Source of the DNA: Planctomycetota bacterium
GTDB lineage: Bacteria > Planctomycetota > Phycisphaerae > WQYP01
NCBI GenBank assembly: GCA_021808105.1
Contig: JAKBCC010000018.1
Location: 1 to 43,110 of the forward strand
Direction: 5' to 3'
DNA: 43,110 bases
Part shown: piece by piece, positions 21,458-39,000 of the stretch
Position numbering within the stretch: position 1 is the stretch's first letter
Layout of the letters: each line of letters begins with the position of its first letter
The notes under the pieces: model-generated
Told to the model about the DNA's origin: nothing
The model's database searches: none
Seen by the model: the letters and a program-made list of their open reading frames with translations, nothing else
Translations under genes and position numbers: made by a program

Positions 21458-21508
21458 AAGGTGCTCCCATGGCAAGAAAATTAAGAGACCGACAGGCTGG
21501 CACGACTA

Positions 21509-21802
21509 TTATTGAGACTTGCGCTTCTTAAACATCTTGAGCATACGATCCGTCATTAAAAAGCCCCCCACCACGTTGATCATGGATGCCGTCACGGCGA
21601 TGGTGCCCAGCACCACGACCATGGTGGTATTGTGCCCCGCACCCGTTACGACAATGGCTCCCACAACGGAAATTGCCGAGATCGCATTGGTCAGCGACAT
21701 CAGCGGCGTATGAAGCTGGGGCGAAACGCGCCGCACCACCTCATAACCCAGAAAAGCCGCCAGCGCGAAAACAAACAAATTCGATTCCAGTGATGAATTC
21801 AT
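21509..21802 (-). CDS. pntAB: NAD(P) transhydrogenase subunit alpha, membrane part
   Basis: This 97-residue protein is the small membrane subunit that is fused to the C-terminus of PntA in E. coli but separate in Rhodospirillum-type enzymes. It has three hydrophobic helices with the conserved core [27 protein letters not shown], followed by [29 protein letters not shown] and a basic tail. It joins PntB in forming the proton channel. ATG 21802 has GGAG 8 nt upstream. The gene lies between pntAA and pntB on the same strand. Confidence 0.93.
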
Positions 21803-21893
21803 AATTGTATCTCCAAGAACTCACGCATTATATATGTTCACGAGCTGAACTTTGCGAATTTTTATGGCCTGCCCTCAACGACTGTCCGGCGGA

Positions 21894-23084
21894 TTATCCG
21901 ACACCCGCCACAGCCTGAGGCACTTCCAGCACCGGCAGTTCCAACAGCTCACGCACCCGCTGATTAATAATGACGCCATCACGCATGACCAGCATCTCGC
22001 GCGTAATTTGATCCTGCATATCCAACTGGCATTGCCCATTTTTGATCAGATGTTTAAGTACATTGGCAATGTTATTGGCATACATTTGACTGGCGTGAAT
22101 CGGCAGCGTGGCCGTGAGATTTGTCGGCCCCAGAATCGTTACATCGTGATAAGTAACGATTTCGTCACCGCGTGTCAGGGCGCAGTTGCCCCCGCGGACA
22201 GCCGCCAGATCAACGATAATGGAGCCGGCTTCCATTGCGGCAACCATGTCTTCGGAAATCAGAACCGGGGCTTTTTTCCCCGGCACCGCGGCGGTGGATA
22301 TGACGATATCCGCTTCGCTGACGCTGTGGGCCATGAGTTCGCGCTGCCGCTGCTGTTCCTCAGCCGTCTGCTGCCGGGCGTAACCGGCTGGCGTTTGCGC
22401 TTCAGCGGCCTGCATGGGCAACTCAATGAATCGGGCACCCAGGCTTTGCACCTGCTCCTTGACTGCGGGCCGTACATCAAACGCACTGACTTGCCCCCCG
22501 AGTCGCCGGGCCGTGGCAATCGCCTGCAAACCCGCAACGCCCGCTCCGATGACAAACACCTTGGCCGGTGTGATTGTTCCGGCCGCGGTAATCATCATGG
22601 GGAATATTTTTCCGAGTTTTTCCGCCGCGATCAACACTGCCTTGTACCCCGCGAGGCTGGCCATGGAAGATAGCGCATCCATGCTTTGTGCACGGGTAAT
22701 CCGCGGCACCAGTTCCATAGCCAATAAGGTCGCACCGCACTGGGAAAGTAGCTGCATCGCGGGCTTATCAGTCAGTGGATCGGCAAAAGCAATGATATGA
22801 ATGCCGCGTTTTACCGCCGCCAAGTCCGGGCCTTGCACTTCCGGATGTGATCCCAATGCGTGGACCTGCACCAGAATATCCGCCTGTTTAAGCAGTTCGG
22901 TGCGATCAACCGAGAGATGCACACCGGCCTTTTCGTAAGCCGCATCTGTGAATCCAGCCGCAACCCCGGCCCCAGGTTGAATGTGAACTTCCAGTCCCAG
23001 CTTCACCAGGCCGGCCGCTGCCGCAGGCGTCAGCGCCACCATCCGTTCGCCGGGAAAATTTTCTTTTATTGCAGAGACGATCAT
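21894..23084 (-). CDS. pntAA: NAD(P) transhydrogenase subunit alpha, NAD-binding part
   Basis: This 396-residue soluble subunit binds NAD(H) at the membrane complex (domain I). It starts IKENFPGERMVALTPAAAAGLVKLG, typical of the PntA/alanine dehydrogenase fold, and carries the nucleotide motif GAGVAGLQAIATARRLGG and the segment AFDVRPAVKEQVQSLGARF. The frame is open for 39 more codons upstream, to 23201, but that extension would overlap the metallophosphoesterase gene and has no family resemblance. ATG 23084 gives the normal family length. Its ribosome site is weak (GGAA). The split alpha subunit (pntAA plus pntAB) is the bacterial three-gene arrangement. Confidence 0.93.
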   Translation of the reverse strand: MIVSAIKENFPGERMVALTPAAAAGLVKLGLEVHIQPGAGVAAGFTDAAYEKAGVHLSVDRTELLKQADILVQVHALGSHPEVQGPDLAAVKRGIHIIAFADPLTDKPAMQLLSQCGATLLAMELVPRITRAQSMDALSSMASLAGYKAVLIAAEKLGKIFPMMITAAGTITPAKVFVIGAGVAGLQAIATARRLGGQVSAFDVRPAVKEQVQSLGARFIELPMQAAEAQTPAGYARQQTAEEQQRQRELMAHSVSEADIVISTAAVPGKKAPVLISEDMVAAMEAGSIIVDLAAVRGGNCALTRGDEIVTYHDVTILGPTNLTATLPIHASQMYANNIANVLKHLIKNGQCQLDMQDQITREMLVMRDGVIINQRVRELLELPVLEVPQAVAGVG

Positions 23085-23178
23085 AACGGGATTTCCATAT
23101 CTACAAAGGTATAATGATTCCGGTTCGGCTTTTTTGCAAGCCAGCGTAGCGGCCATCTGTGATAGGGCCGTCATTAAC

Positions 23179-23964
23179 TCAACGCAGATCGGTCCACACA
23201 ATAGATTCCGCAGAATTCTCGCGGCTGGTCCGCAGCGTCAGCATCATCACCTGCGGCGGACAGAACAGCCGCAAACGCAGTCCCGCCTTGCCGATGCCGC
23301 GATTCACGATTAACCAGGTATCGGCAATGCGATTTAATCCTGTGCACAGATTCGGCGGAAGCACATCATGCCCGATGATCGGACTGCCGTCCGGGTAGCA
23401 TATCTGCCCGCCATGGGTATGGCCGGCCAGGCAAACATCCACGCCGGCGGCGGCAGCGGAATGGATAAGATCCGGATAATGCAGCAACATAAGCTTAAAA
23501 TCGTTGCCCAGCACGTTCTGCAGGGCTGCGGGGATATCGGTGTCGCTGCGCCGATGCTGGGCGATGCCAATCAGGGCCAGGCGTTGTCCGGAGCGTTCAA
23601 TAATCACCGACTCATTGACCAGCATCACCGCCCCTCCAGCCGCCAGTGCCGGCCCAAGCTCAAGCGAATCATGATTACCGAGAATAAAGTATGTTCCCAG
23701 CGGGGCATGAATAGCGGAAATCAGTCGCTGAACATTGGGCAGGCTCTTTTTCCATTTCCAACTGCGGTGCCCCAGATCACCGGTGATGACCGCCAGATCG
23801 GGTTTCAGCGGCGCAATATGATCGCTCCATTGCTGCAACTCGGCGGTCCATTTTGTAATGTGCAGATCAGAAAGATGCAAAATACGTATGCCGTCAAACG
23901 CTTCGGGCAAGCGGTCCAGTGCCAGTTCAAGATGTTCCACTTCAGCCAAAGTCGCACCCCGCAA
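23179..23964 (-). CDS. Calcineurin-like metallophosphoesterase (YkuE/YaeI type)
   Basis: This 261-residue protein has the full dimetal phosphoesterase signature in order: LSDLH (D33, H35), TGD (D63), LGNHDS (N97, H98), LLHYPD (H162) and AGHTHGGQ (H182, H184). The arrangement and size match the YkuE/YaeI group, often linked with membrane lipid or phosphodiester hydrolysis, but the substrate here is unknown. No signal peptide or membrane anchor is visible with this start. The start is uncertain: TTG 23964 follows GGAG by 14 nt, and a second TTG five codons later has GGGG 7 nt before it. The stop lies 94 bp upstream of the pntAA start, so the genes may be co-transcribed. Confidence 0.85.
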   Translation of the reverse strand: MRGATLAEVEHLELALDRLPEAFDGIRILHLSDLHITKWTAELQQWSDHIAPLKPDLAVITGDLGHRSWKWKKSLPNVQRLISAIHAPLGTYFILGNHDSLELGPALAAGGAVMLVNESVIIERSGQRLALIGIAQHRRSDTDIPAALQNVLGNDFKLMLLHYPDLIHSAAAAGVDVCLAGHTHGGQICYPDGSPIIGHDVLPPNLCTGLNRIADTWLIVNRGIGKAGLRLRLFCPPQVMMLTLRTSRENSAESIVWTDLR

Positions 23965-24022
23965 CGCTGCGCATTATTCTCCGGAAACCATTTCCAGTCG
24001 CACGCTGCATAACTTACAGATT

Positions 24023-24050
24023 CTATACCGCCAAAGTGTTGGCGGTATAG
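24023..24050. promoter_or_regulatory. Perfect 11-bp stem-loop between two minus-strand genes
   Basis: The arms CTATACCGCCA (24023-24033) and TGGCGGTATAG (24040-24050) are exact reverse complements around a 6-nt loop. It lies after the VOC gene and before the metallophosphoesterase gene on the minus strand. There is no T-tract on either strand. It could act as an mRNA end, a processing site or a protein-binding site. Confidence 0.4.
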
Positions 24051-24082
24051 TCAACAACTTGGACGGCTCTCGAAATGATGGA

Positions 24083-24490
24083 TTAGCTCAGCAGTGGCCC
24101 GCGCATCCCGGCGGGCATGGGCTGGGGCCATTGCGTAGGCCACGCTTGGTTAATTTCCGCTATTTCAATGTAGTTGTTATCCGGATCAAAAATGATAAAT
24201 CGCCGCACCCCCCGATACTCCCGATCCGGTCTGCAGGGCACGCTCCGCGATTCCAGATATTTACGAGCCAGTTCCAAGTCCGCCACCTGCAGGCAAAGAT
24301 GTTCTGTGGTTCGCGGCGGCAACGGATTCGCGTGCGTCAGGTGAATCTGTTGGTCCCCTACCGCGTACCACGTGCCTTGAAAATCAAACCAATCCGGCCG
24401 TGGAACTTCCATCAAGCCCAGAATTTCGGAGTAAAATTTCCGCGATTGAGCTACATTGGAGACCCACAGCGTGACATGTTGAATAGCCAT
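24083..24490 (-). CDS. VOC-superfamily protein (glyoxalase/dioxygenase fold)
   Basis: This 135-residue protein has the paired beta-alpha-beta-beta-beta modules of the vicinal oxygen chelate fold: MAIQHVTLWVSNVAQSRKFYSEILGL at the start, EHLCLQVADLELARKYLESR in the middle, and RRFIIFDPDNNYIEIAEI at the end. Probable metal ligands are H5, the His of EHLCLQV and the Glu of YIEIAE. The family includes glyoxalase I, dioxygenases and fosfomycin or bleomycin resistance proteins; nothing here points to one activity. ATG 24490 is preferred over ATG 24535, because the extra 15 residues are not part of the fold and GGGGA lies before 24490. It is 82 bp after nth. Confidence 0.8.
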   Translation of the reverse strand: MAIQHVTLWVSNVAQSRKFYSEILGLMEVPRPDWFDFQGTWYAVGDQQIHLTHANPLPPRTTEHLCLQVADLELARKYLESRSVPCRPDREYRGVRRFIIFDPDNNYIEIAEINQAWPTQWPQPMPAGMRGPLLS

Positions 24491-24572
24491 GGCACCGATT
24501 CCCCGCCGTTCGACTGGCCCTGATTTTTCTAGCATCTACTACTCTGCTTTCATACTATCAGCATCGCTTTAA

Positions 24573-25298
24573 TTAACTCTTTCTCCCGGTCATTTGGCTC
24601 TGCCGGGCCGCTTGAAACGCCGAGGGACACAATCCGGCCAATTGGCATCTTTCACACGCGGGCTTACGCGCGGCACACACCGCTCGCCCATGCGCAATAA
24701 GCAGATGGGAAACAAGCGTCCAGTCGCTTTGGGGAATTAGTGACATCAGATCTGTCTCCACTTTTTCCGGGTCATCATGCTGCGACAATCCCAAACGCCG
24801 TGCCAGACGTCCCACATGCGTATCGACCACCACACCAATCTGCTTGCCAAACGCATTGCCCAATACCACATTGGCGGTTTTACGCCCCACACCCCGAAAA
24901 GCCGTAAGCTCTTCCATGGAATTTGGCACCTGCCCGCCATGAGCTTCGACAAGCTGCCGAGCCGTATGCTGAATAGACTTAGCCTTCGCCCGAAAAAACC
25001 CGGTGCTTTTAATAATGTCTTCAATATGAGAAATATCCGCAGCAGCCAATGAGGCGGCATCGGGAAATCGCCTGAAAAGTATCGGCGTAACCATATTGAC
25101 GCGCACATCCGTGCACTGCGCGGAAAGAATTGTGGCGACCAGCAACTCCAAAGGGGACTGATGAACCAAAGCGCAATGCGCATCAGGGTACATTTTTTTC
25201 AATAAGGCCAGAATCTGATCACAGCGCTTTCGCCGGGCCGCAGCGGTTTCCCGGAACTTTTTTTTTAGCCCGTCCCTTTTTATCATGAAAGCGTCCAT
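24573..25298 (-). CDS. nth: Endonuclease III (DNA glycosylase/AP lyase)
   Basis: This 241-residue enzyme removes oxidised pyrimidines and cuts at abasic sites in base excision repair. The helix-hairpin-helix is FRGVGRKTANVVLGNAFG with catalytic Lys140, and the catalytic Asp is in VVDTHVGR (D159). The C-terminal [4Fe-4S] cluster loop is intact: C208-x6-C215-x2-C218-x5-C224. The frame is open upstream to 25529, but the added 77 residues are unlike the family and contain a promoter-like sequence. The start is therefore ATG 25298, or ATG 25286 four codons later; neither has an ideal ribosome site. The protein has about 15 residues more at the N-terminus than E. coli Nth. Confidence 0.93.
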   Translation of the reverse strand: MDAFMIKRDGLKKKFRETAAARRKRCDQILALLKKMYPDAHCALVHQSPLELLVATILSAQCTDVRVNMVTPILFRRFPDAASLAAADISHIEDIIKSTGFFRAKAKSIQHTARQLVEAHGGQVPNSMEELTAFRGVGRKTANVVLGNAFGKQIGVVVDTHVGRLARRLGLSQHDDPEKVETDLMSLIPQSDWTLVSHLLIAHGRAVCAARKPACERCQLAGLCPSAFQAARQSQMTGRKS

Positions 25299-25430
25299 TC
25301 CACCGCGATTTTTCGATTCTTTCGCACGCCTGCTTGCGCGGCAACATGCGCCAGCTTTTTGCCCCAAGGCCGCAAACACGCCGCAGCCAGTTAGCTTTTG
25401 GGCATCCGACGCATGGGAGCGTGAGAAAGC

Positions 25431-25459: not shown

Positions 25460-25461
25460 AT

Positions 25462-25487
25462 CGCCGATGTATGTCGCCGATGTATGT
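25462..25487. repeat. Tandem 13-bp direct repeat above the nth promoter
   Basis: TCGCCGATGTATG occurs twice with no spacer (25462-25474 and 25475-25487), directly upstream of the proposed -35 box. Spacing of 13 bp is not a full helical turn, so binding of a regulator to both copies is uncertain. Confidence 0.5.
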
Positions 25488-25530: not shown

Positions 25531-28500
25531 TCAAGGCTTGGCGGCTTTCACCGGCACCAGCTTCAACGGCGGAATTTTCAGCGGTACATCCGTCACGCCG
25601 CCGGGGAGGGGCGGTACCGTGAAGGTGCCGTCAACTGTGCCGATGGTTTGGTCGGTAGAACCGAACTGCATGGGCACCGTGACGGCTGGATTGGCCGCGA
25701 TCGCTGTAACTACGTATGTTCCCGGAACCACATCATGAATGGTGAAAGTATTATTTGCGTTGATAACAAAGGGATAATCGTGGAGCTGCGTTCGCCTCCA
25801 TAATTGATAGCGCGCAAAGAAGGCCTTGCCGGCAGCGGTAGCGAAAAACTTGTTAAACCACTGGGATTGCTGCGCATCAGTGCCGTGCTTTACACTGGCC
25901 GGAATGGGCCAAGTTAGGGGCTTGGTTTCGGCGTCGGCCATCTCGAAATACCAGCCGCGAAATGCCGCCAGCGATTGAGGAACTGCGATGCGCCCCTCCA
26001 CTGTTCGCCCAACGCCTCCCAGCGTTACCTTAACAGTTGTCCCGGGCGGGACGGTAACGGGGCAGCCCAGCGCTCCCGATTCACCCGCCATCGGGCCTGA
26101 AATCCGCATTTGGACGGATGCTTTGCCAGCGGGAAAGCGGGAAATCTTGAATCGGCCGCCCGAATCTGTCCGAGCCGTCACCCACCATGAGACGCCGGAG
26201 TAAGAGGCTCCAGGTTTGGAATCCAAGCGGATATCGCAATAGGCGAGAATTTTTTTATTGGCTCCCGGCTTGGTGCCAAATAGCAGCAGGCCCTGAATAT
26301 GCCCCCATTTCGTCAGGTGGATAGTGCCTGACTTGGGCATCTGTGATCGCGATAAAACAGCGGAACCCGATTTGTCGTAAACGACAATCTGATAATTTCC
26401 CCGCTGCGGCTCAAAATTCATCCGGCCATCCGCCCGAGTCCGGGTTGTGCTGTCGCCTTGGGTCTGGTTCCACGTCGTTAAATGAATCGTGGCATTTTGA
26501 CCCGCCGGAATCAATATCGCTTTGGCCCCCGCAGCAGGCGACCCGTTGGGATTCAAAACGTTTGCCGTGATTTCCGGCGCGACGGTCAGTCTGAACACCA
26601 GATGAACTGTTGGTTTATTATTATGAAACAGTCGGGAAACTGCGGGACGATAGCCCGGTGCCGCGATGCGCAGCGCATAGCCCGCGCGCTGCGTGGGCAA
26701 GGTATAAATGAAGTGCCCATCACCAGTGATTTTTTTGGGATACATCCGGTCCCAGGATATTTGCATCCCACCCGGCACGTTAGCAGCTGTAGATGCAAAA
26801 ACACAGCCGCGAATAATTGTGAATTTATCAACCGGTTTACTGGTGAGGGCATCCACCACGGTACCGTTAACACGAACTGCGTAGTGTAAGGTGACGACAT
26901 TGTCGTGGCTATTGGCTTGAACGGGAGCACGCATTCTGGAGGCGTAGTTGTTGTCCAACACCTCCACGAGAAGTTTGCCTGCCGGGGCGCTGTACCATGT
27001 GAACCTGCCCCGGCTGTCCGTGTTCATCTGATGCATAATGGTGCGGCACCCCCGCCATGTGTCGATGAGAACCGTCGCCCCTGCCAATGGTTGGCCAACC
27101 GGATTGACAACACGCCCAACCAGTATTTGCGGCCGGGGAAGTTTCAGCGCAATTTCACGGGGTCTTGAACCCATGATAAATTTCAACAGCATGGGACTGC
27201 AGCCCTTGGATATTGCCGTGACAACCACCCGCTTACCCGGCTTGGCTGCAAAAGCAAATTGCCCCTTGGCGTCGGTGGTCATCGCCGGCGGGGTGTTGGA
27301 TCCCCAGATATCTGACCCGATTACTACGCGGGCACCGGCAATCGGCGCATTGTTCTGTCCCACCACCAGTCCTTTAACCATTTCGCCCCGTTGGAGAACG
27401 GAAATGGCCGTGCCGTTGCGCAGCTTAGTCAGATTCGAGACAAACGGCATGAAATTGTTAGTATTCCGTACATATTGGTAATCCCACACGCCTACGCCGA
27501 TGTTCTTAACGCCGGTCGCCGGGATCCCATCATAATGCCACGCACCGTCCCTGTTTGTCCGCAGATTGATCGGCACGACAAAAGGCTTTTCATGGGGTGC
27601 CTCCGCTTTGGCGTTGATCCAGAGCATAACGTGCGCACCGGCAATAGGATGACCCGCATCATCCACGACGCGCCCGGAAATTCTGGTGCCGCGGGGCATG
27701 GCCACGGTAAAGCTTGAGGGGATTTGCGTTGGGTTGCCGTTGTGCGAGCCCCAGATAAGTTGCTGCCAAACGTAATGCCGCGCCTTGAGGAAAATCTGCA
27801 GCCACGCTGAACGCGCCCGCGGCAGCGCGACGTTCGCACGACCGTGCGCGTCCGTAACGGTTTCAGTGCCACCGCCAAAGTCTACCTGAGAATCCACTTT
27901 CACCCCCGCCAGGGGCTTGCCGGTTTGCTTGTCGATAACAGTGAGTTCCATGGTTTTGCGCCCCTGGGCGGGCGGTGCTGCCATTATATCCATCGCGGGC
28001 ACGGTCTTAACCGCAGGCACGCGCTTCGGCGCGGGTACCGGTGGATCAGCGGGCTTCGCAGTTTTCACCCGCACAAGCTTCAGCGGCGGAATTTTCAGCG
28101 GCACATCCGTCACGCCGCCGGGGATGGGCGGCATCGTAAACGTCGCCTTCGCAACTGCGAGAGGAGGAATCATAGGAGATGCCATCATAGGTGTCGGTTT
28201 TCGACCGTCGAGAACGGTCACGTACACTCGGTATTTCCCAGGCACGACATCAGGAATGAGAAAATGGCCGTCGGGCTTGACGATGAAAAAGTAGAATTCC
28301 CCGTGCGTCTTTGCCCAGCGATCATCATTGGAGATCCAAGTCTTCCCCGCAGGCGTCTTGAGAAATGTCCGCATCCATCTATTTTGTACTGCGTTGGTGC
28401 TGGCTCGAACATCCTTGGGAAATGGTAAAGGCGGGCCTTTTATTCCGGCCTGGGCCACGCCGAAGTGCCAATGGCGCCTGCGTGCGAACGCCGACGGAAT

Positions 28501-30500
28501 AATCACTCGACCCGTCACGCATCGTCCCTTTCCTCCGAGCGTAACATCACTGGTTTTCCCGGCTTGTACCCTGATCGTATCATTGAGATTACCGCCATGC
28601 GTAAAGGCTGTCATACCGCTGCCCGGCTCCCAGATAATCAGCCGTACCGATGTTTCACCCGCTGGTAGTTGTTTGCAGACAAACTCACCCTTTGAATTCG
28701 TTTTTATCAGGCGGGACCATAGGATCCCTTGAAAAACGGGTAGGTACTTGCCAGCCGGCGAATCGACCACGACGGTCTGCCCAGGCGCAGTCTCGGAACC
28801 GAACAGCAGTCGACCATGGACATGGCCCCAGGGCAACAACCGCACGACCTTCGATCTTGAAAATCCGGCCCGTGTAACGACCGCATAGCCATCGTGATCA
28901 CGTATTGCTACCTGAAAATTACTCGCCTGCGGCGGAAAACTCAGCAGGCCGTGGTGGTCGGCAACGCGGCTTATATTCCCTTGCGGCAATGCAAACGGTC
29001 GGAATCCTATGGTGGCACCCTGGCCCGCGGGTACCAGCAACGCCTTTGCCCCGGCTGCGGGAGCGCCATCCGGATTCAAGATGGCCGCGGTAATAGTCCT
29101 TGCCGGCCTGAGCTTGAAGTGCAGGTAGACATTCCGCACATTGCTGTTAAACAGTTTGGAATCCGCAGGGCCGTAGCCGTTGGCTTCGATCCGAATCTCG
29201 TACATGGGGAATTGACCAAATGGCCGATATACAAAATGCCCATCACCGACAACATTTTGCGGAGATCGCGTGTTCCAGAAAACTTGCGGTGCCCCGCCCG
29301 GACTGGCCGGAGCTGATCCGAACCCGCCGATCACGCGAAATTTGTTGATCGGCTTACCGGTCCCGGCATCAACCACTGTGCCATGCACGGTGACCTGGTA
29401 TCGCAGTACAACACGGTTCTTGGAGCCTGCGTGGATTGGAATGTCCATTGCGTAGGCGTAGCCAGGGGCCTGCGCATTAACAAATATTTGCCCGCCAGGT
29501 GCGTCGTTCCAGAGAAAACGCCCCTGGTAATCCGATCGCATGGTATGCATCAGCGTGCGGCAGTCGCGCCACCGATCGGGGTATACCAAGGCCCCAGGGA
29601 TCGGTCGACCCGAGGGTCCGACCACCTTTCCGGTCAGTAGCCGCGGTGCCGGGAGATTGATCAAAAGCTTAGATGGTTTTTGTCCGGCATTGAACCGTAT
29701 GAGACGCGGTCCGTAGCCCTTTGCGGTGGCCGTTACGAATACCAATCGGTAGGGTTTTACGGCGAAGGCAAAGCGTCCAAGTTTGTCCGTCACCAGTGGC
29801 GACGGCACGTTCGTGGCAATGCGATCCATTCCCAGCACAACCTTCGCCCCCGCAACCGGTTTTCCATCTCGTCCACGGACTACCCCATGCACCATGACGC
29901 CACGTTGGAGTGTGTATACCGCCCGGCCGTTGAGGAATGTGCGGAGATCCTTAAATTTCCGTAGTGGCACATATCCGCTGAACGCTCCTGTCTGGTGCAA
30001 GCTGCCCCACACGTAATTATAATCCCATACGCCCAGGCTAATTCCCTTCAGACGCCCCACCGGAACGCCCGCACAATGCCAAAATCCCTGGGCGTCAGTC
30101 ACTGTCGAGATCGGGTAGGCGTCTATTCGCTCTAAGGATGGCGTCTGCGGACCAGTGTCCCACCAAACTTGAACGTGCGCACCGGCAATAGGATTTCCCA
30201 GATCATCGTCCACACGGCCTGAAATGGTTTTACCGCGCCACATCTTAACCGTGTAACGCGCCGGTATCCGCGTGGCCGCAGAGTTTTGAGAATTCCATGA
30301 TAATTCCATCGGTACGTAGGAGGGTTTCTCGATCTGAAGGTTAAGGATGGAAGTCGGGGACGCTTTCAGCAACGGGATATCAACAATCCCGCGCACGGAG
30401 GTTCGCAGCATAGAGCCGTTCCATAATATTACTTTTACCCACGCCAGCGGTTTGCCGGTTTGCTTGTCAATCACAGTGAGTGTCATGGTTTTGCGCGCTG
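25531..30500 (-). repeat. Internal duplication in the M56 fusion gene
   Basis: The segments of about 30500-28040 and 27963-25531 encode the same series of modules. Both start RKTM(T/E)LTVIDKQTGKPLA and both end PPLPGGVTDVPLKIPPLKLV. The end regions are still close at the DNA level (compare 28070-28125 with 25550-25603), while the middle has diverged. A Pro-rich linker (PADPPVPAPKRVPAVK) joins the two halves. Confidence 0.8.
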
Positions 30501-31758
30501 GAGCCGTCGCGGCGGCCCGTGTATTGCCGGGATGCGAGCTTGGCAATGGAGGACTCGCTTGCAGATGCAGCGCGGCACAAGACGCTACGACCAGCGTACC
30601 GCCGATCAGCATTCCTACCGCCAGCCTCACTCCTATGGGGCGGCGGTTTTTGCGATCATCTAAAATTGCCGCGATGCGGCCTTTCAGTTCCGAAGGCCGG
30701 GCCATGGCCAAGGTTGCGGGAAGCGGCGGTGATAGCGCGGCGGAATGCAAACTGCGAGCGATGGCTAATAAATTTTCCGCATAGTCTGTCGGTGCTGTTG
30801 CGCAACGCAGCACTGCGTCGTCGCAGGCCCGTTCACATTCGCTGCGCAAACTCCGCCAGCCCCACCATACCAACGGATCCGGCCAATGCAGTATGCAGGC
30901 AATCAGGCCGCAGAAGAGACTGGCACAATCCCATCGTGCCACATGAGCGAACTCATGGAGCAAAACGGTCCGCAATTTTTCACGTGGCCACGATTCTGCC
31001 GCAGTGGGCAGTAGCACACACGGGCGAAAAACCCCGTGTGCCAACGGAATACGCAGGTTTTCATCCAGTGCAATGCGGGTTGGCCGACGTAACTTAAGCT
31101 CATGGCAAATTTCGCCCGCCAGCTGCGCAATGGGACCAGTCGAAATTGTTCGCGCCCGCGCAAGCCGCCGAGCCACGCTCAAATGGCCGATTAACCCGGC
31201 CAAACCAATAGCGATCACGCCTATCCCCCAAATCGCCAAAAGCAGCACTGGCCAGTGATTGGCCATTCGGTGCCATGTCATCGCGGCCAACCCGCCTGTC
31301 TTGGCGGCTGGGGCAACAGCCGTAGTATCGCGGTGCGGGGCCACAACTGCTGCACTCTGCGGTGCAGCCACCACACCCGCCGTCTTGCGGAGTCGCGGCA
31401 TGGCATGACGATCAGCGGCTACGCCAACGGTTCCAACGGGAAGCGGACGAACGGCAGTGGCATGGACCGACAAGCTACGCAGACGCAACGCCGGCAAGTT
31501 CACCGGGGCAACGGCTGTAATCCGCGGCAGAATCGGAAGCCGGAGCGTGGGCACTTCTGCCGAGAGCATCGGCAACACCAGCACACCGCACAGGGCAATC
31601 GCCCATACCAGATGGCGCGCCGCAGCCGAGGTTTTGCGCATGGCGGCGGTAATCAATCCGGCGGCGAACATTATTACGGTGCCCTTGATCAGAACATCAC
31701 CAAGAACAGCAAGCAGTTCCAATGACAATGAAGTTCCGGGAAAATCATTTGCGATCAT
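25531..31758 (-). CDS. BlaR1-like M56 membrane protease fused to a giant carboxypeptidase-regulatory-like repeat region
   Basis: This 2075-residue protein begins like BlaR1/MecR1: membrane helices near 15-39 and 51-70, another near 170-190, then the zinc peptidase domain with HEFAH (H268, H272) and the third ligand region SECERACDD (E307). A last helix (about 378-397) leads into about 1650 residues of Ig-like carboxypeptidase-regulatory-like modules (VIDKQTGKPLAGVKV, ISGRVVDDAGHPIAGAHV, LVGRVVNPVGQPLAGATV and others). These replace the penicillin-sensing domain of BlaR1 and should lie outside the cytoplasm. The C-terminal region is an internal duplication. By family analogy the protease inactivates the BlaI-type repressor after sensing a signal. 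ATG 31758 is chosen over GTG 31776 because GAGGAG precedes it by 8 nt; the start overlaps the repressor gene by 14 bp. Confidence 0.85.
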   Translation of the reverse strand: MIANDFPGTSLSLELLAVLGDVLIKGTVIMFAAGLITAAMRKTSAAARHLVWAIALCGVLVLPMLSAEVPTLRLPILPRITAVAPVNLPALRLRSLSVHATAVRPLPVGTVGVAADRHAMPRLRKTAGVVAAPQSAAVVAPHRDTTAVAPAAKTGGLAAMTWHRMANHWPVLLLAIWGIGVIAIGLAGLIGHLSVARRLARARTISTGPIAQLAGEICHELKLRRPTRIALDENLRIPLAHGVFRPCVLLPTAAESWPREKLRTVLLHEFAHVARWDCASLFCGLIACILHWPDPLVWWGWRSLRSECERACDDAVLRCATAPTDYAENLLAIARSLHSAALSPPLPATLAMARPSELKGRIAAILDDRKNRRPIGVRLAVGMLIGGTLVVASCAALHLQASPPLPSSHPGNTRAAATAPARKTMTLTVIDKQTGKPLAWVKVILWNGSMLRTSVRGIVDIPLLKASPTSILNLQIEKPSYVPMELSWNSQNSAATRIPARYTVKMWRGKTISGRVDDDLGNPIAGAHVQVWWDTGPQTPSLERIDAYPISTVTDAQGFWHCAGVPVGRLKGISLGVWDYNYVWGSLHQTGAFSGYVPLRKFKDLRTFLNGRAVYTLQRGVMVHGVVRGRDGKPVAGAKVVLGMDRIATNVPSPLVTDKLGRFAFAVKPYRLVFVTATAKGYGPRLIRFNAGQKPSKLLINLPAPRLLTGKVVGPSGRPIPGALVYPDRWRDCRTLMHTMRSDYQGRFLWNDAPGGQIFVNAQAPGYAYAMDIPIHAGSKNRVVLRYQVTVHGTVVDAGTGKPINKFRVIGGFGSAPASPGGAPQVFWNTRSPQNVVGDGHFVYRPFGQFPMYEIRIEANGYGPADSKLFNSNVRNVYLHFKLRPARTITAAILNPDGAPAAGAKALLVPAGQGATIGFRPFALPQGNISRVADHHGLLSFPPQASNFQVAIRDHDGYAVVTRAGFSRSKVVRLLPWGHVHGRLLFGSETAPGQTVVVDSPAGKYLPVFQGILWSRLIKTNSKGEFVCKQLPAGETSVRLIIWEPGSGMTAFTHGGNLNDTIRVQAGKTSDVTLGGKGRCVTGRVIIPSAFARRRHWHFGVAQAGIKGPPLPFPKDVRASTNAVQNRWMRTFLKTPAGKTWISNDDRWAKTHGEFYFFIVKPDGHFLIPDVVPGKYRVYVTVLDGRKPTPMMASPMIPPLAVAKATFTMPPIPGGVTDVPLKIPPLKLVRVKTAKPADPPVPAPKRVPAVKTVPAMDIMAAPPAQGRKTMELTVIDKQTGKPLAGVKVDSQVDFGGGTETVTDAHGRANVALPRARSAWLQIFLKARHYVWQQLIWGSHNGNPTQIPSSFTVAMPRGTRISGRVVDDAGHPIAGAHVMLWINAKAEAPHEKPFVVPINLRTNRDGAWHYDGIPATGVKNIGVGVWDYQYVRNTNNFMPFVSNLTKLRNGTAISVLQRGEMVKGLVVGQNNAPIAGARVVIGSDIWGSNTPPAMTTDAKGQFAFAAKPGKRVVVTAISKGCSPMLLKFIMGSRPREIALKLPRPQILVGRVVNPVGQPLAGATVLIDTWRGCRTIMHQMNTDSRGRFTWYSAPAGKLLVEVLDNNYASRMRAPVQANSHDNVVTLHYAVRVNGTVVDALTSKPVDKFTIIRGCVFASTAANVPGGMQISWDRMYPKKITGDGHFIYTLPTQRAGYALRIAAPGYRPAVSRLFHNNKPTVHLVFRLTVAPEITANVLNPNGSPAAGAKAILIPAGQNATIHLTTWNQTQGDSTTRTRADGRMNFEPQRGNYQIVVYDKSGSAVLSRSQMPKSGTIHLTKWGHIQGLLLFGTKPGANKKILAYCDIRLDSKPGASYSGVSWWVTARTDSGGRFKISRFPAGKASVQMRISGPMAGESGALGCPVTVPPGTTVKVTLGGVGRTVEGRIAVPQSLAAFRGWYFEMADAETKPLTWPIPASVKHGTDAQQSQWFNKFFATAAGKAFFARYQLWRRTQLHDYPFVINANNTFTIHDVVPGTYVVTAIAANPAVTVPMQFGSTDQTIGTVDGTFTVPPLPGGVTDVPLKIPPLKLVPVKAAKP

Positions 31759-32149
31759 GGCGTTTTCTCCTCGCACGAGCCTGGGCGATCATGTCCGACA
31801 TTTCATCGAGCTGTTCATCTGACAAGGTGGCATCTGAGCCGTCCAGCAGCGCTGCGACGGTTTTGGAGGTCGAACTGTCAAAAAAGGTTTCTACGAGGCG
31901 TCGCAATGCCGACTTGCCCGCTTCGGTGCGCGCCTGCTGCGGCATGTAAATGTATTTCCCATCTTCGCAGCGATGCTGCACGTGTCCCTTTTCCTCGAGA
32001 ATGCGCAGCAAAGCCCGCACCGCAGAGTAGCCAGGTGCGTCGGGAAGTGAGGCTCGCACCTGCGCTACCGTCGCGTGGCCACGGGCATAAAGAATATCCA
32101 TGATCTGCCGTTCCCGGCGACTTAAATGCGTGGTCGTGTGAGGCTTCAT
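31745..32149 (-). CDS. blaI: BlaI/MecI/CopY-family transcriptional repressor
   Basis: This 134-residue protein has the N-terminal winged helix of the family: LSRRERQIMDILYARGHATVAQVRASLPDAPGYSAVRALLRILEEKGHVQHRCEDGKYIYMPQ. The C-terminal helical part (KSALRRLVETFFDSSTSKTVAALLDGSDATLSDEQLDEMSDMI) is the dimerisation and cleavage region. Relatives bind palindromes as dimers and are cut by a partner M56 protease. ATG 32149 has GGGAG 5 nt upstream. Its last 14 bp overlap the start of the M56 gene, which suggests coupled translation. No beta-lactamase gene is present, so the controlled genes are unknown, but the operon itself is a likely target. Confidence 0.92.
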   Translation of the reverse strand: MKPHTTTHLSRRERQIMDILYARGHATVAQVRASLPDAPGYSAVRALLRILEEKGHVQHRCEDGKYIYMPQQARTEAGKSALRRLVETFFDSSTSKTVAALLDGSDATLSDEQLDEMSDMIAQARARRKRHDRK

Positions 32150-32180: not shown

Positions 32181-32196
32181 TGCTAAAATTTTAGCA
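32181..32196. promoter_or_regulatory. Perfect 16-bp palindrome over the -10 box, probable BlaI operator
   Basis: TGCTAAAATTTTAGCA is an exact palindrome that covers the -10 box and the expected start of transcription. A repressor dimer bound here would block RNA polymerase. It lacks the TACA/TGTA form of the staphylococcal bla operators, so the family match is by position and symmetry. Confidence 0.6.
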
Positions 32197-32216
32197 CGTT
32201 AGACGAACGGTGTCAA
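32188..32216 (-). promoter_or_regulatory. Near-consensus promoter of the repressor-protease operon
   Basis: On the minus strand a perfect -35 TTGACA (32211-32216) is separated by 17 bp from the -10 TAAAAT (32188-32193). Transcription should start near 32181, about 30 nt before the repressor start codon. Confidence 0.75.
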
Positions 32217-32333: not shown

Positions 32334-32406
32334 CCACCGGCAAAGCCGGCGGCTATGTGAAGTTCATCCGCACGCCCCTGTGACCCGGAAATATTGCCAC
32401 GCGGGC
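32334..32406 (+). repeat. REP-like dispersed intergenic repeat, copy C
   Basis: GTGCGTTCCACCACCGGC is followed by AAAGCCGGCGGCTATGTGAA and, further on, CCGGAAATATTGCCACGC. By eye roughly four in five bases match copy A at 1735-1816. The core folds into a hairpin with an A-rich loop. Confidence 0.7.
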
Positions 32407-32495
32407 GTTTACCGGTTGTATCCCCTGAACTCTTGCATTGGCGGGCGATTGCGTCTATGTTCAAGGCGGTCGGGGCGTGTTATGGGGGTAACATT

Positions 32496-35400
32496 ATGGC
32501 GGTTCAATTTGTGATGGGTCGTGCGGGAACGGGCAAGACGCGATTTTGCGTGGATGCACTTTCTGCCGCTTCGCACGCGGATCCGCTGGGGCCGCTGTTG
32601 CTGTGGGTTGTGCCGGAGCAGGGAACATTCATGTCCGAGCAACGGCTCGTTGCCAGTGCATCGCTGGCGGGAAGTTTCCGTATTCGGGTGGTGGGATTTC
32701 GGCGACTGTGCCGATTTCTTGCCGAGGAACTGCATCTACCCCTGGGGCCGGAACTCTCCCCGATAGGCCGGCAATTGTTACTGGCACGGGCGGTGCAGCG
32801 ATGTCGGGGAAATCTGATCGCCTATCATCAGGTAGCGCATCTGCCGGGGTTTCTGGCAACTCTGGATCGCACGCTTAGGGAAATTATGCAAGCCGGGCAA
32901 AGTTCCCAGGATCTGCGTGCGGCTGCCGAGAGAATGCGGTCCGGTGCTACGCAACGTAGCGATCATATTGGAGCCGGCGTACTGGCGGATAAACTTCAGG
33001 ATTTGGCATGGTTGCTGGAAAGCTGGGACAGCGTCCGGCCGGTCGGGGCCATTGATGCCGACATGCTTCCAGGAATTATTGAAAATGCTCTGGTGAACGA
33101 CCGCCGGTTACACAATATACGTATATATGTTGATGCATTCAGTTCCATGAGCGTGATGGAAATCCGACTTTTATCGCTGCTGGCCAAATCCGTGCAGGAG
33201 ATGTCCATAACGCTGCTGGGCGATCCGGCCAGTCCGGTTTTTACCAATCCGGCTGCTGTCCCGGAACCGCTGGGCGTATTCCGCCGCACGGAACGGTTGT
33301 TTCAACGACTGATGCGGCAATTTCAGTTATCCGGTGTAGTCGTGGAAAAGCCCATATTTTTGCGCACGCCCCACCGCTTTGCCCGCGCGGGTGCCCTGGT
33401 CCATCTGGAATCGCAATTGTTTACCAGCCGACAGCACCGAACACCGCCCGTTTCTTCCCAAAACGCCGTGACCTTGCTTTCCTGTGCGTCCCCGGAAGAG
33501 GAAGTACTTTGCGCGGGCCGAAAAATACGATTGCTGGCCGCCGGAGGAATGCGTTACCGGGAAATCGGGGTCGTTGTCAGCGATTTAGGCCGGTATGAGA
33601 AGTTGATCAATACCATCTTTCCAAGCCTGGATATTCCCTATTTTCTCGATGAGCGCCAAAGTCTGAAATTTCATCCGCTGATCGAATTGTTGCAGGCTCT
33701 GGCCGCGCTGATTCAGAATAATTTTGCCCGTCGAGACTTACTATCACTGGTAAAAACCTCTCTGACCGGCATCACCCGTTCCGATGCGTACAATCTCGAG
33801 AACTATTTGCTGGCGCACGGCATTGAGCGCGACACGCTCAAATCCGATTGGACCTGGGAACAATTGCCGACCGAAAACGACGGCAACCGGCCAACGGCGA
33901 TGGAAGCGGAAATCCTGAATTCGGTCAACGCGGCGCGAAATAAATTGCACCGCGCCCTGGAGCCTTGGATCACGCTGCATTCCGATCCGCAACAATCAAG
34001 ACCCGTTGCCCAATACGCCCAAGCCATCATAACACTACTTGGCTCCATGCGGGTCGCGCCAATCATGGAACAGTGGATTGCGCAGGCCACCGCTCAGGGC
34101 GCTATTGAACAAGCGCAGATTCACCAGCAAGTCTGGTCCCAATGCAGCGAGATGCTCCAGGAAATGACCCGGGTAAAATTGGAACACACCCAAACGTCAT
34201 CGGAATTCTTCGAATTATTGCAAACCGTGCTGGAAAATTTAACCCTGGGGCTTATTCCACCAGCGGTGGATCAGATCCTGATAAGTTCCGCACAGCGGTC
34301 CCGTCATCCGGAACTAAAAGTCGTGTTGATCATGGGGGCATTGGAAACGCTGATGCCAAAAGCCGCTGCGGAAGACAGCATGATTAACGACGCCGATCGA
34401 CGCCGACTTGAGCCGATATTCGGTGATGCTCTGAATGCCGATACATCGCAAGATTTTATAGAAGCCGCATTTTTTGATTATGTCGCCATGACGCGTCCCA
34501 GCGAGCAATTACTAATCAGTTATCCCGCCGCCGATGCCGAAGGGCGAAAGACCGCCCCAAGTGTCTACATAGCCCGATTGCGCGATCTGTTTACGGATGT
34601 CCACATTCAACAGCTTGAATCCACCGATATCCACTGGCCGGATTTTTCCGCGCTCGACGAGTTGATCCGCTGGGTTCTCCTGGCCAGGGAGGATGTCGGT
34701 CTGGGGCGATCTCAGCGGGCGAATGGGCTTTCAGCCGAAGCGGCGCAACAGTGGCTTAATTCACAGACCGACCCGGCCATTGCTCAACGCTGGCACCATG
34801 CACTGGATTCAAAGAAGCGGCGGCATATTGCACCTCTGCCGCGGGACCTGGGCCGGTTCGCGTGCGGCCCGGCCACAATAAGTGTAAGCGAATTGGAAAC
34901 CTACGCGGCGTGCCCCCTGCAGCATTTTTACAGCTATACCCTGCGTTTGCGGGCGCGGCCTGAATGGCAAATCGATGCGCGCAGTCTTGGCCTGATGTAT
35001 CATCATGCTCTGGATCTCTTTTACCGTGCGGTCATTAACGGCTCGCTGGCGTGGCCGGACTGTGAACGAGCCGATTTTGAAAAAGCGCTGACCAAGGCAA
35101 TTGCGGAAAGTACTGAAAATCTTTCCGCTCATGCCATTGCCGATGCGTTGGAGATCCAGGCCATTGTCAAACCTTTACATCGGCAACTGGCGGTTATTCT
35201 TGAGGCACAACGCCGGGCCGCACAGGGCAATAACTTCCGCCCCGCCGCAACGGAATTGCGGTTTGGCAGTTTTTCCAATCGTGAGTCAGCCGCCGGGGAT
35301 TCAGCCGCGCCGGCACTCCCGGCGGTCACATTAGATCCCGCCAATGGGTCGCTGGAACTGCGCGGCAAAATTGACCGCGTGGATCTTGACCCAGCCGGAA

Positions 35401-36038
35401 ATGCCATGCTTGTTGATTACAAGTCCGGAGGAAAGAAATTCAATCTGGGAAAATTTGTGCACGGCCTGGATTTACAATTAGTGGCCTACCTGCTGGCCGT
35501 GCGTAATGCCACCCTCAACGGCGCGGGCCCGCTGCACCCGATCGGTGCATTTTATTATCCTTTGCGCCCGGCGGAAATTCCGGTTCACCCTGCCCCCGGC
35601 GAAGAGCCGCTGAATGCAAACGATCCGGCATACTATAAAACATGCAAACCGGACGGCCCGTTTGATAACCTGGCCATTCCATCATTGGATTCACGGGTCC
35701 AACGCGGAACTTCCAGCGACTGGTTCAAGATAGCGCTGAAACAAGACGGCATGCCTCATGCCGGTAGAAACGATGGATTGAATCATCCCTTATTTTCCGC
35801 GATGCTGGAATCGGGGTTAACAACCATGCGATCCATAACCCGGTGCATGGAGGATGGAAACATCGCCCCCTCGCCTTATAAGACCGGAAAGTTAATCCCC
35901 TGTTCCACCTGTGAATACAAAAGCATTTGCCCATTTCCACGTCAGGGCGGTCCATTCCGCAACCTGGATACGAACCATGACAACGCAATAAAAGTTTTGA
36001 CTGCCATGGCCCAACCCGCAAGCGCGGAGGCCCAATGA
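32496..36038 (+). CDS. addB: AddB-type subunit of the ATP-dependent helicase-nuclease
   Basis: This 1180-residue protein is the AddB partner of a double-strand break repair helicase-nuclease. It starts MAVQFVMGRAGTGKT with a Walker A motif at 8-15. The C-terminal nuclease domain has GKIDRVDLDPAGNAMLVDYKSGG (D974, K976), and the iron-sulfur cluster cysteines are complete: C806 in AACPLQHFYSY and C1136-x2-C1139-x5-C1145. ATG 32496 is preferred because a GGGGG run lies 6 nt upstream and because the 34 extra codons of the longer frame run into a dispersed repeat. The stop codon overlaps the addA start by 4 bp (ATGA), so translation is probably coupled. Confidence 0.92.
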   Translation: MAVQFVMGRAGTGKTRFCVDALSAASHADPLGPLLLWVVPEQGTFMSEQRLVASASLAGSFRIRVVGFRRLCRFLAEELHLPLGPELSPIGRQLLLARAVQRCRGNLIAYHQVAHLPGFLATLDRTLREIMQAGQSSQDLRAAAERMRSGATQRSDHIGAGVLADKLQDLAWLLESWDSVRPVGAIDADMLPGIIENALVNDRRLHNIRIYVDAFSSMSVMEIRLLSLLAKSVQEMSITLLGDPASPVFTNPAAVPEPLGVFRRTERLFQRLMRQFQLSGVVVEKPIFLRTPHRFARAGALVHLESQLFTSRQHRTPPVSSQNAVTLLSCASPEEEVLCAGRKIRLLAAGGMRYREIGVVVSDLGRYEKLINTIFPSLDIPYFLDERQSLKFHPLIELLQALAALIQNNFARRDLLSLVKTSLTGITRSDAYNLENYLLAHGIERDTLKSDWTWEQLPTENDGNRPTAMEAEILNSVNAARNKLHRALEPWITLHSDPQQSRPVAQYAQAIITLLGSMRVAPIMEQWIAQATAQGAIEQAQIHQQVWSQCSEMLQEMTRVKLEHTQTSSEFFELLQTVLENLTLGLIPPAVDQILISSAQRSRHPELKVVLIMGALETLMPKAAAEDSMINDADRRRLEPIFGDALNADTSQDFIEAAFFDYVAMTRPSEQLLISYPAADAEGRKTAPSVYIARLRDLFTDVHIQQLESTDIHWPDFSALDELIRWVLLAREDVGLGRSQRANGLSAEAAQQWLNSQTDPAIAQRWHHALDSKKRRHIAPLPRDLGRFACGPATISVSELETYAACPLQHFYSYTLRLRARPEWQIDARSLGLMYHHALDLFYRAVINGSLAWPDCERADFEKALTKAIAESTENLSAHAIADALEIQAIVKPLHRQLAVILEAQRRAAQGNNFRPAATELRFGSFSNRESAAGDSAAPALPAVTLDPANGSLELRGKIDRVDLDPAGNAMLVDYKSGGKKFNLGKFVHGLDLQLVAYLLAVRNATLNGAGPLHPIGAFYYPLRPAEIPVHPAPGEEPLNANDPAYYKTCKPDGPFDNLAIPSLDSRVQRGTSSDWFKIALKQDGMPHAGRNDGLNHPLFSAMLESGLTTMRSITRCMEDGNIAPSPYKTGKLIPCSTCEYKSICPFPRQGGPFRNLDTNHDNAIKVLTAMAQPASAEAQ

Positions 36039-39000
36039 ACGATCCCATCCATGCGACAAATCAAACGCAGACTCTTTCGTTCACCGCCGCGCAGCGATGC
36101 GCCATCGCCCATCGTCGCGGAGAAATGGTGGTGCTGGCCGGAGCTGGATCAGGGAAAACGGCGACGCTGGCCCGGCGTTGCGCGGAACTTGTAACAGCTA
36201 CCCCCGAAGGCTGCAATGTACGCGAACTTCTTGTGCTGACATTCACACGGGAAGCCGCTGATGAAATGCGCAGCCGCATTGCTCGTGTCCTGCGGGAGAC
36301 AGCCGACGGCCAGACCGCCCCTGATCTTTTTCAACATCTGCATCAGCAGGCCGCTTCCGTGGACACGGCACAAATCAGCACGTTTCACGGCTTTTGCAAT
36401 TGGGCGGCAAAAACCTGGTTTATGTTCTGCCGGGTTGATCCGAGATTTACCTTACTTAATGAGCATGAGTCCGCCATGCTCCAGACCGATGCGTTACAGG
36501 AGACAGCCCGACTCTTTATGGCATCCGACCATCCGCAGCACAATAATTTTGTTGAAGTATTTGATTTGTACGCCGGCGCATCACCGGCAAAACTGGAAAT
36601 GCTTATTATGCCAATTTTGCGGGTCATGCATACCATCGTGGATCCTGAAGCGTGGTGCGCCAGGGCGGCCGGCAACGGGAGTGCTGAAATACAGGACGTT
36701 CTTACCACTTTTATTCAACAGAAAGCACGTCGCTCGGAGGAACTTGCCCTCATGCTGGCGGCCGGTGCCGATGAAGCGCGACTCTTTCAAGCCGATGGCA
36801 AAAAGTTAATGTTCAGCGGTCTTACCGAGGCGGCAATGGCGGCTAAACAATCGGCTGAAGCATTAGACGCTGATGGTGCCGCCGGATGGACAAAGGCACG
36901 CAATTATTTGGCAAGCGTAACATTTGCTGCCCAGATTCGGCTGGGCGATGGTGATGATAAGTCGCAGGCGGAGCACTTCAGAGACGGAATGTACAAGCCT
37001 CTGAAAGAGGCGTTTACCCAACTGCGCAACGAATTGGCCGGTTCGGATATTACGCAGTTGCAGGCGCTTGAAACCACCAGTCGCAAGCGTGTTGCCGCAT
37101 TTCTGGCGTTTGCCAATGCCGTGCAGCAGCAGTATCAGCGGGCGAAGAAATGGCGCCGCCAGTTGGATTATTCAGATCTGGAACGCACACTTCTGGCCGG
37201 CCTTTCAGAGCCGGGCAACCCGCTGCAAGCCCTGCTGCATCAGCGCTTTCGACATATTCTGGTCGATGAATATCAGGATATCAATCCCGTGCAGCAACGG
37301 CTTATTGAATTGCTCTATCGCGGGGAAGCCGGCTCGCGTGGATTAATGCCCGGCTCACTATTTGGCGTAGGGGATGTGCTGCAGAGCATTTACAGCTTTC
37401 GCGGGAGCGAGCCGAAAATACTCCATGATATGGCCGGCCATCTGACCACGGCCGGGCAGGGCGACAAAATTATTACCATGCGGGAGAATTACCGCACCGT
37501 GCCGGCATTGGTGGATGCGCTAAATGCAATCATTGCACCGATGCTGCAAATGGTTCAGCAGGAGTCCCCGCCCACCGGAATTAATATGGCGGAACTTGCC
37601 CCACTGTATCATGGCCGCAAGCCGCCGGTATCCCCCTGTTTTCCGGGAATACCCGTGGAACTACACGTTTTAACGGCATCAAAGAATGATCCGCATGCCA
37701 ACGCCGATGACGAGGACAACGGCAGCCCGGCGGATGCGAACGATGCATTCAACGAAATGCAGGCCGACGAACTGGAAGCCACCAGAATCGGCCAGCTTAT
37801 TGTTCAAATGCTGCAAAGCTCACGCAAGGTCGGCCCGGAGTTGCGCCCGCTGGAATTAAAAGATATCGCCATACTTCTGCGCGCGCCCGGCCAGCGGGCA
37901 CCGCATTATGTGCGGACACTGGGCGCTATGGGCATTTTCGCTAACGCGGCCCTGACGACCGGCTTTTTTGAATCCAGTGAAGTGCTGGAGGTACTGGATA
38001 TTTTGCGCGTGCTGGATAACCCGAAACAGGATATCGCGCTGGTGAGCGTGTTAATCGGGCCTATTGGCGGATGCACCATGGCGGACTTGGCCTATATCCG
38101 CAAAAATGTCCCGGACTCCATCCCGTTTCATCAGGCGGTGACCGACTTCGGGCAGAAAAACCATACCGATGCCGCTGCGGCCGCACTGGCCGGGAAAATC
38201 ACTCATACCATGGCCAAACTGGAACAGTGGCGATCAGCCATGCGCGCTGAAACACTGGTCAACGCCTTGTCCCGAATTATGCAGGAAGCCGGTTTGCTGA
38301 ATCAGGCCGCCGCCATGGTCGGCGGTCGTCAGCGTCTGGCTAATTTACGTCTGCTGCAGCAGCGGGCGATGGAGTTTTCCGGTTTTGAATTACAGAGCCT
38401 GGCCCGATTCGTCAACTTTTTCGAGCGCTTGCGCGAAGAGCGAGACCTGGGTGAGGCGGCCCCGCCGGCCGGCAATGCGGTACGGATCATGTCCATCCAT
38501 GGCAGTAAGGGACTGGAATTTCCCGTCGTTTTTGTGGCGGGTCTGGGAACGGCATTTAATAAACGTGATCTTCAACAACAACTGCTGGTAGACCGCGACA
38601 AAGGCATTGGCCTTAAGATTCTGGATGCCAATGGCGTTCTGGTGCAGGATTCGCCGGGCCGCAGGGTGCTGGCCGAAGAGAAATTGGGAAAGCTTCTTCA
38701 GGAAGAGGCACGCTTACTTTATGTGGCGATGACACGAGCCAGAGATCAACTGATCCTCATTGGAAGAATGCCGGAATCCGCGGTGGAGAAATGGTCGCAA
38801 ATACGCTTGCCTGACGCCGCGAAAAAAAAGGAACGCACCCCTGCATTAAAACCCGCCAATTGCCCATTGGCATGGCTGGGACCCATTTTCAGCCAATATG
38901 CGAACCGGCAACCTGCCAACGCAACCGGGCCGCTCCTGGCGCTGCATGTGGTGCCTGAGAGCACACTGAATTCTCCTGACACCCAGCGCCCCCATAGCCC

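Follow-up and report, generated by a model that had tools for sequence, protein, structure and literature searches.

A BlaI-type repressor paired with a giant M56 receptor-protease whose ectodomain lacks a penicillin-binding domain in a planctomycete

The receptors BlaR1 and MecR1 are familiar as sensors of antibiotics. What might a receptor built on the same plan respond to when other modules stand in place of its penicillin-binding domain? The question is raised by a gene pair in a 43,110-nucleotide stretch of planctomycete DNA (here called the window; contig JAKBCC010000018.1 of assembly GCA_021808105.1, class Phycisphaerae), which is contig C205 of genome G000 (3.86 Mb in 216 contigs, 94.6% complete). 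A preliminary description, made from the sequence, had proposed that a BlaI-type repressor gene overlaps by 14 bp the gene of a giant M56 peptidase, which keeps HEFAH and the Glu region, has no penicillin-binding domain and carries about 1,650 residues of carboxypeptidase-regulatory-like modules. All of these features were found again (Table 1). We propose that the two genes probably encode a BlaR1-type transmembrane signalling pair, in which the receptor chassis carries a swapped ectodomain. By sequence, this chassis is BlaR1-like in its parts and their order; it is very probably BlaR1-like in mechanism, and we infer that the signal is not a beta-lactam.

The overlap of the two genes points to their co-transcription. 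A profile built from eight repressors matched the solved MecI structures 1sd6 and 1okr (E about 1e-14) and BlaI 1sd4, and the match took in both the DNA-binding and the dimerisation parts. The best NCBIfam match of the repressor was to a CopY-type copper repressor, at 39.4 bits far under the cut-off of 121.95, and no copper transport gene was seen adjoining.

The protease part was compared with BlaR1, whose signature is H201EXXH plus E242XXXD (PMC9834060). In the window the third zinc ligand stands at +37 from the last His of HEFAH, the BlaR1 spacing, which is common to 84 of 97 M56 sequences, the window's included. A profile of 19 M56 parts aligned with the solved BlaR1 structures 8exs and 8exp (E=6.8e-21; residues 78-328 of 8exs), and in our reading of the profile alignment D277, Y326 and R361 correspond to Asp210, Tyr261 and Arg294, which are named for BlaR1 in PMC9834060. 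No solved structure was matched when the Protein Data Bank was searched with single sequences; the matches to BlaR1 and to MecI/BlaI came from profiles. The NCBIfam model of the BlaR1 equivalog (NF000326) matched the M56 part alone, with 76.9 bits under a cut-off of 400. The AlphaFold model of the M56 part (three sequences; mean predicted local distance difference test score, pLDDT, 39.5) was too poor for an independent test of the architecture. The motifs and alignments suggested that the M56 part has the transmembrane-protease architecture of BlaR1.

The outer region, residues 417-2075 (1,659 amino acids), holds nine CarboxypepD_reg (PF13620) stretches, with 224.6 bits against a cut-off of 32.3; modules of this kind are prealbumin/immunoglobulin-like. 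It consists of two tandem blocks of about 820 residues, which are 43-44% identical over about 800 residues. Within this region no transpeptidase or beta-lactamase family was matched in Pfam and no sensor family in NCBIfam. Structure prediction, which the preliminary description had suggested as a check, was carried out on block 2 and gave beta sandwiches arranged in a chain (mean pLDDT 67.9, predicted template-modelling score 0.42). Foldseek searches with this model retrieved pilin, SpaA-like and macroglobulin-type strings (best E 5e-11) with template-modelling scores of 0.05-0.27; since these scores are low, the model supports the class of the modules alone and no overall shape. A beta-lactam sensor concealed in the C-terminus, which the preliminary description had named as a finding that would refute its reading, was ruled out: neither Pfam nor NCBIfam gave a match, neither an SxxK/SxN/KTG triad nor a fold like that of a penicillin-binding protein (PBP) was found, and the model was an all-beta tandem. 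As the sensor that defines BlaR1 was looked for and not found, the window receptor does not fall under the definition of a BlaR1. Since the last hydrophobic helix (about residues 377-400) corresponds to transmembrane helix 4 of BlaR1, the modules are expected on the periplasmic side.

Upstream of blaI lies the 16-bp palindrome TGCTAAAATTTTAGCA, which the preliminary description had also mentioned. With up to 3 mismatches allowed, no other match occurs in the window, where 0.09 would be expected by chance; the -10 box of a sigma70-type promoter lies inside the palindrome. The palindrome is identical upstream of blaI in the congeners G003 and G007 (loci L087 and L088). Variants stand at the corresponding site in G022, G017, the C204-type paralogs and the G015/G039 pairs (loci L022, L089-L093 and L106), and the layout of operator on promoter is the same in the orthologs. 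Several of the variant-bearing pairs, but not the window's, have a second copy of the palindrome upstream of the -35 box. The position over the -10 box, together with the unchanged sequence in two congeners, makes self-repression of the operon very probable. Of 99 upstream regions of BlaI-M56 pairs, 9 have the -10-box dyad, compared with 0.2 in shuffled sequence; most other pairs are without this form, so it characterises the lineage of the window.

The palindrome search that had been suggested as a way to the regulated genes yielded no convincing target beyond the pairs' own promoters. Genome-wide, with 3 mismatches, we found 16 sites against 13 in the control, which is no excess, and sites with 2 mismatches were rejected as targets, being inside reading frames. 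The pattern GYTAAWATWTTARC occurs six times in seven related genomes, five times at BlaI-M56 promoters and once inside leuB (G007:C105). Since the pattern was derived from these same promoters, their recovery is expected, and the informative point is that there are no other intergenic sites. The extra sites that degenerate patterns gave in C184, and the leuB site of G007:C105, were rejected as targets, as they too are inside reading frames.

Table 1. Positions in the window of the gene pair, its protein domains and its putative control elements
Feature	Position	Strand	Basis
BlaI/MecI-type repressor, 134 amino acids	31745-32149	-	PF03965, E=1.3e-23, 83.9 bits against cut-off 22.6
M56 receptor-protease, 2,075 amino acids	25531-31758 (ATG at 31758, stop ends at 25531)	-	Sequence, Pfam, profile match to BlaR1
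14-bp overlap of blaI and the M56 gene	31745-31758	-	Sequence
Peptidase_M56 domain, residues 166-365	30664-31263	-	Pfam, E=5.5e-27, 95.1 bits against cut-off 31
HEFAH zinc/catalytic motif, residues 268-272 (H268-E269-F-A-H272)	30943-30957	-	Sequence and alignment
ERACD (gluzincin EXXXD), residues 309-313, third zinc ligand E309	30820-30834	-	Motif alignment
Ectodomain block 1, residues 417-1262, CarboxypepD_reg-type modules	27973-30510	-	Self-comparison with block 2
Ectodomain block 2, residues 1263-2075, the better conserved block	25534-27972	-	70% identical to block 2 of the G003 ortholog
Putative 16-bp palindromic operator TGCTAAAATTTTAGCA	32181-32196		Conserved upstream of blaI in relatives
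Sigma70-type promoter TTGACA-17-TAAAAT	32188-32216	-	11 of 12 consensus bases; -10 box inside TGCTAAAATTTTAGCA

How common such pairs are was surveyed across the class in 120 genomes, of which 72 have M56 genes at the threshold used. Among the matches listed, 150 M56 genes with a median frame of 917 amino acids (ten of at least 2,000), a BlaI gene lies directly upstream in 138. The same was true of all 99 loci read in detail, which were chosen for long frames. CarboxypepD_reg was present in 23 of 96 ectodomains among the matches listed; the other families there were TPR, HEAT, LRR, EF-hand, secretin, SLBB, ankyrin, SecDF P1 head and redoxin (thioredoxin), while laminin-G and beta-helix outer domains were each found in a single protein. 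No recognised antibiotic-sensing domain was seen in the loci read among the best 25 family matches per table, a depth at which a rare transpeptidase-type member is possible. The window pair is thus not an oddity: the class has many large M56 receptors in which no penicillin-binding domain is recognised. Other pairs (for example L098, L102, L121, L089, L090 and L091) share its chassis and gene order, and several have CarboxypepD_reg ectodomains, some of similar length, whereas most pairs of the class have other or unrecognised outer domains.

On the M56 tree, many branches of which are weak, the window-type ectodomain requires at least 12 changes, 8 of them forced by well-supported branches. 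Since shuffles average 18.3, this ectodomain is partly clustered, yet it has been gained or lost repeatedly. The window pair belongs to a large, apparently undescribed set of BlaI-M56 receptors with exchangeable outer parts. A search of freely accessible papers turned up none that deals with planctomycete BlaI-M56 pairs for signals other than beta-lactams, although M56-CarboxypepD_reg fusions may well be listed in public domain databases.

Several other receptors were noted in the survey. A Pfam Secretin match is present in 8 of 57 M56 ectodomains, for example in L120:1880-6610, which also has LysM, and suggests that such receptors may extend to the outer membrane. The M56 receptors L150:3011-10663 and L170:1166-7879 of genome G104 have ectodomains of 2,551 and 2,238 amino acids with no Pfam family at E<=1e-8. 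L092:3354-6086 (G015:C33) has a long ankyrin-repeat array, expected on the periplasmic side.

We then consider whether the pair is maintained. The ratio of nonsynonymous to synonymous substitution rates (dN/dS) against congener G007 was 0.12 for BlaI, 0.23 for the M56 part and 0.22 for the C-terminal 352 residues; against G003 it was 0.12, 0.24 and, for block 2, 0.17. BlaI, the M56 part and the ectodomain are under purifying selection. Identity to the G003 ortholog was 70% in block 2, 65% in the M56 part and 44-49% in block 1. The ectodomains of the orthologs comprise about 0.4, 1, 2 or more blocks: G007 has about 350 residues left in a 747-amino-acid frame, G022 and G017 have one block each against the window's two, and G003 has two blocks and a partial third, although in these draft assemblies individual length differences could be assembly effects. 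Among the loci read, the two-block duplication is confined to the window and G003. Since ectodomain length differs several-fold between orthologs, much of the ectodomain, namely the variable blocks, may function at least partly as a stalk. The shortest form retains the C-terminal end, which makes the distal block or C-terminal module the likeliest sensing part. The preliminary description had read the pair as a signal-transduction system whose ligand is extracellular and large, for instance a polysaccharide or a protein. A repressor-protease pair of the BlaR1 type, with overlapping genes, agrees with the first part of that proposal, but such a ligand found no support.

The same genome has two further BlaI-M56 pairs, on C204 and C200; these, the tandem duplication in the ectodomain and the position of the palindrome over the -10 box were absent from the preliminary description. 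The C204 pair (L022, G000:C204 181-2757, minus strand) is a second CarboxypepD-type pair, and its ortholog in G007:C314 is intact, with HELTH (dN/dS 0.25 between the two). The outer part of the C200 pair is unlike the window's. The contig end G000:C201 10170-10746 (minus strand; L095) carries another ectodomain C-terminus, 91% identical in nucleotides to C204, which is either a further copy or a strain variant.

If the pair works as a BlaR1-type switch, a repressor dimer on the -10 box would hold expression of the operon low. A periplasmic or cell-surface event at the modules would alter the cytosol-facing M56 domain, which would cut BlaI within the dimerisation part; derepression of the operon would follow. 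Several observations weigh against this proposal. The cleavage site of Staphylococcus aureus BlaI, Asn101-Phe102, aligns with Ala-Leu in the window's BlaI (the P1' residue is hydrophobic in both), and the autocleavage loop differs. In the C204 paralog, a 699-bp in-frame deletion (233 residues) between short TGGCT-GCGGC repeats has removed HEXXH from the M56 gene and left the frame open, and the G003 ortholog has one in-frame TGA. The C204 deletion may be an assembly error; taken together, the two lesions indicate that the system is not strictly maintained. In addition, no second operator-controlled gene was found, the convincing sites in three congeneric genomes being the pairs' own promoters only.

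This last observation also fits a closed positive-feedback loop in which the giant protein is the sole induced product, a surface fibre or adhesin with M56 and BlaI as its private switch. The whole-block variation of ectodomain length and the fold matches to pilin and adhesin module strings agree with such a loop; indeed, the modules share their fold class with the CarboxypepD_reg/SpaA/prealbumin-like strings of surface proteins and pilins, from which they differ by their link with a transmembrane protease and a repressor. However, BlaI operators can be degenerate, so that weaker sites may have been missed in a search that hardly exceeded its control, and metagenome-assembled genomes are incomplete. 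We consider this explanation unlikely. If, on the other hand, the window pair were a decaying or passive surface protein, its signalling lost and the genes kept by chance or linkage, lesions such as those in C204 and G003 and the large in-frame ectodomain deletion in G007 would be expected. The window's motifs are intact, dN/dS is 0.12-0.24 and the operator is identical in three species, and decay is thus very improbable. The BlaR1-like chassis could also report wall damage or beta-lactam stress by another route, with modules that bind peptidoglycan fragments or a partner PBP; in PMC3305447 a peptidoglycan fragment is reported as the trigger of the Bacillus licheniformis system. Against this stand the lack of PBP motifs or fold, an operon in which no gene for resistance or for the wall was seen, and the great diversity of the relatives' ectodomains, and we regard such a sensor as improbable.

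The genes flanking the pair (window 20018-25301, minus strand, and 32394-39859, plus strand) include NAD(P) transhydrogenase subunits, endonuclease III and, as judged by eye, an AddAB-like helicase pair; the neighbours around the ortholog are similar in G007 and not in G003. A perfect 13-bp tandem duplication, TCGCCGATGTATG, lies at 25461-25487, just 3' of the receptor gene and 5' of the endonuclease III gene. Farther away, a 2,413-amino-acid frame (9884-17125, plus strand) has no Pfam match and contains internal repeats (a 369-bp unit three times at 14286-15397); it is possibly a large repetitive surface protein.

Compared with BlaR1-BlaI and MecR1-MecI of staphylococci and B. licheniformis, the signalling pair proposed here has the same repressor family, an M56 protease with HEXXH plus EXXXD that can be aligned with 8exp and 8exs, paired genes and an apparently self-controlled promoter. 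It differs in that the 1,659-residue CarboxypepD_reg-type ectodomain replaces the C-terminal penicillin-binding (class D-like) sensor, and in that its operon has no beta-lactamase or PBP gene. Its operator also differs: the staphylococcal BlaI/MecI operator is of the TACA-TGTA type, whereas the window dyad TGCTAAAATTTTAGCA is AT-rich and not of that type. A wider and tentative possibility is that planctomycetes have in BlaI-M56 a general plug-in platform for receptors with exchangeable outer domains, in a role like that of histidine kinases or sigma/anti-sigma pairs, and that in the window's branch the repressor controls its own receptor only, so that the giant surface protein induces itself. 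As the operator is conserved and the operon compact, with two genes, the chassis lends itself to direct tests with a reporter in a laboratory strain. If the pair signals as proposed, the sensing of penicillin would be a specialised application of a receptor platform with wider uses.

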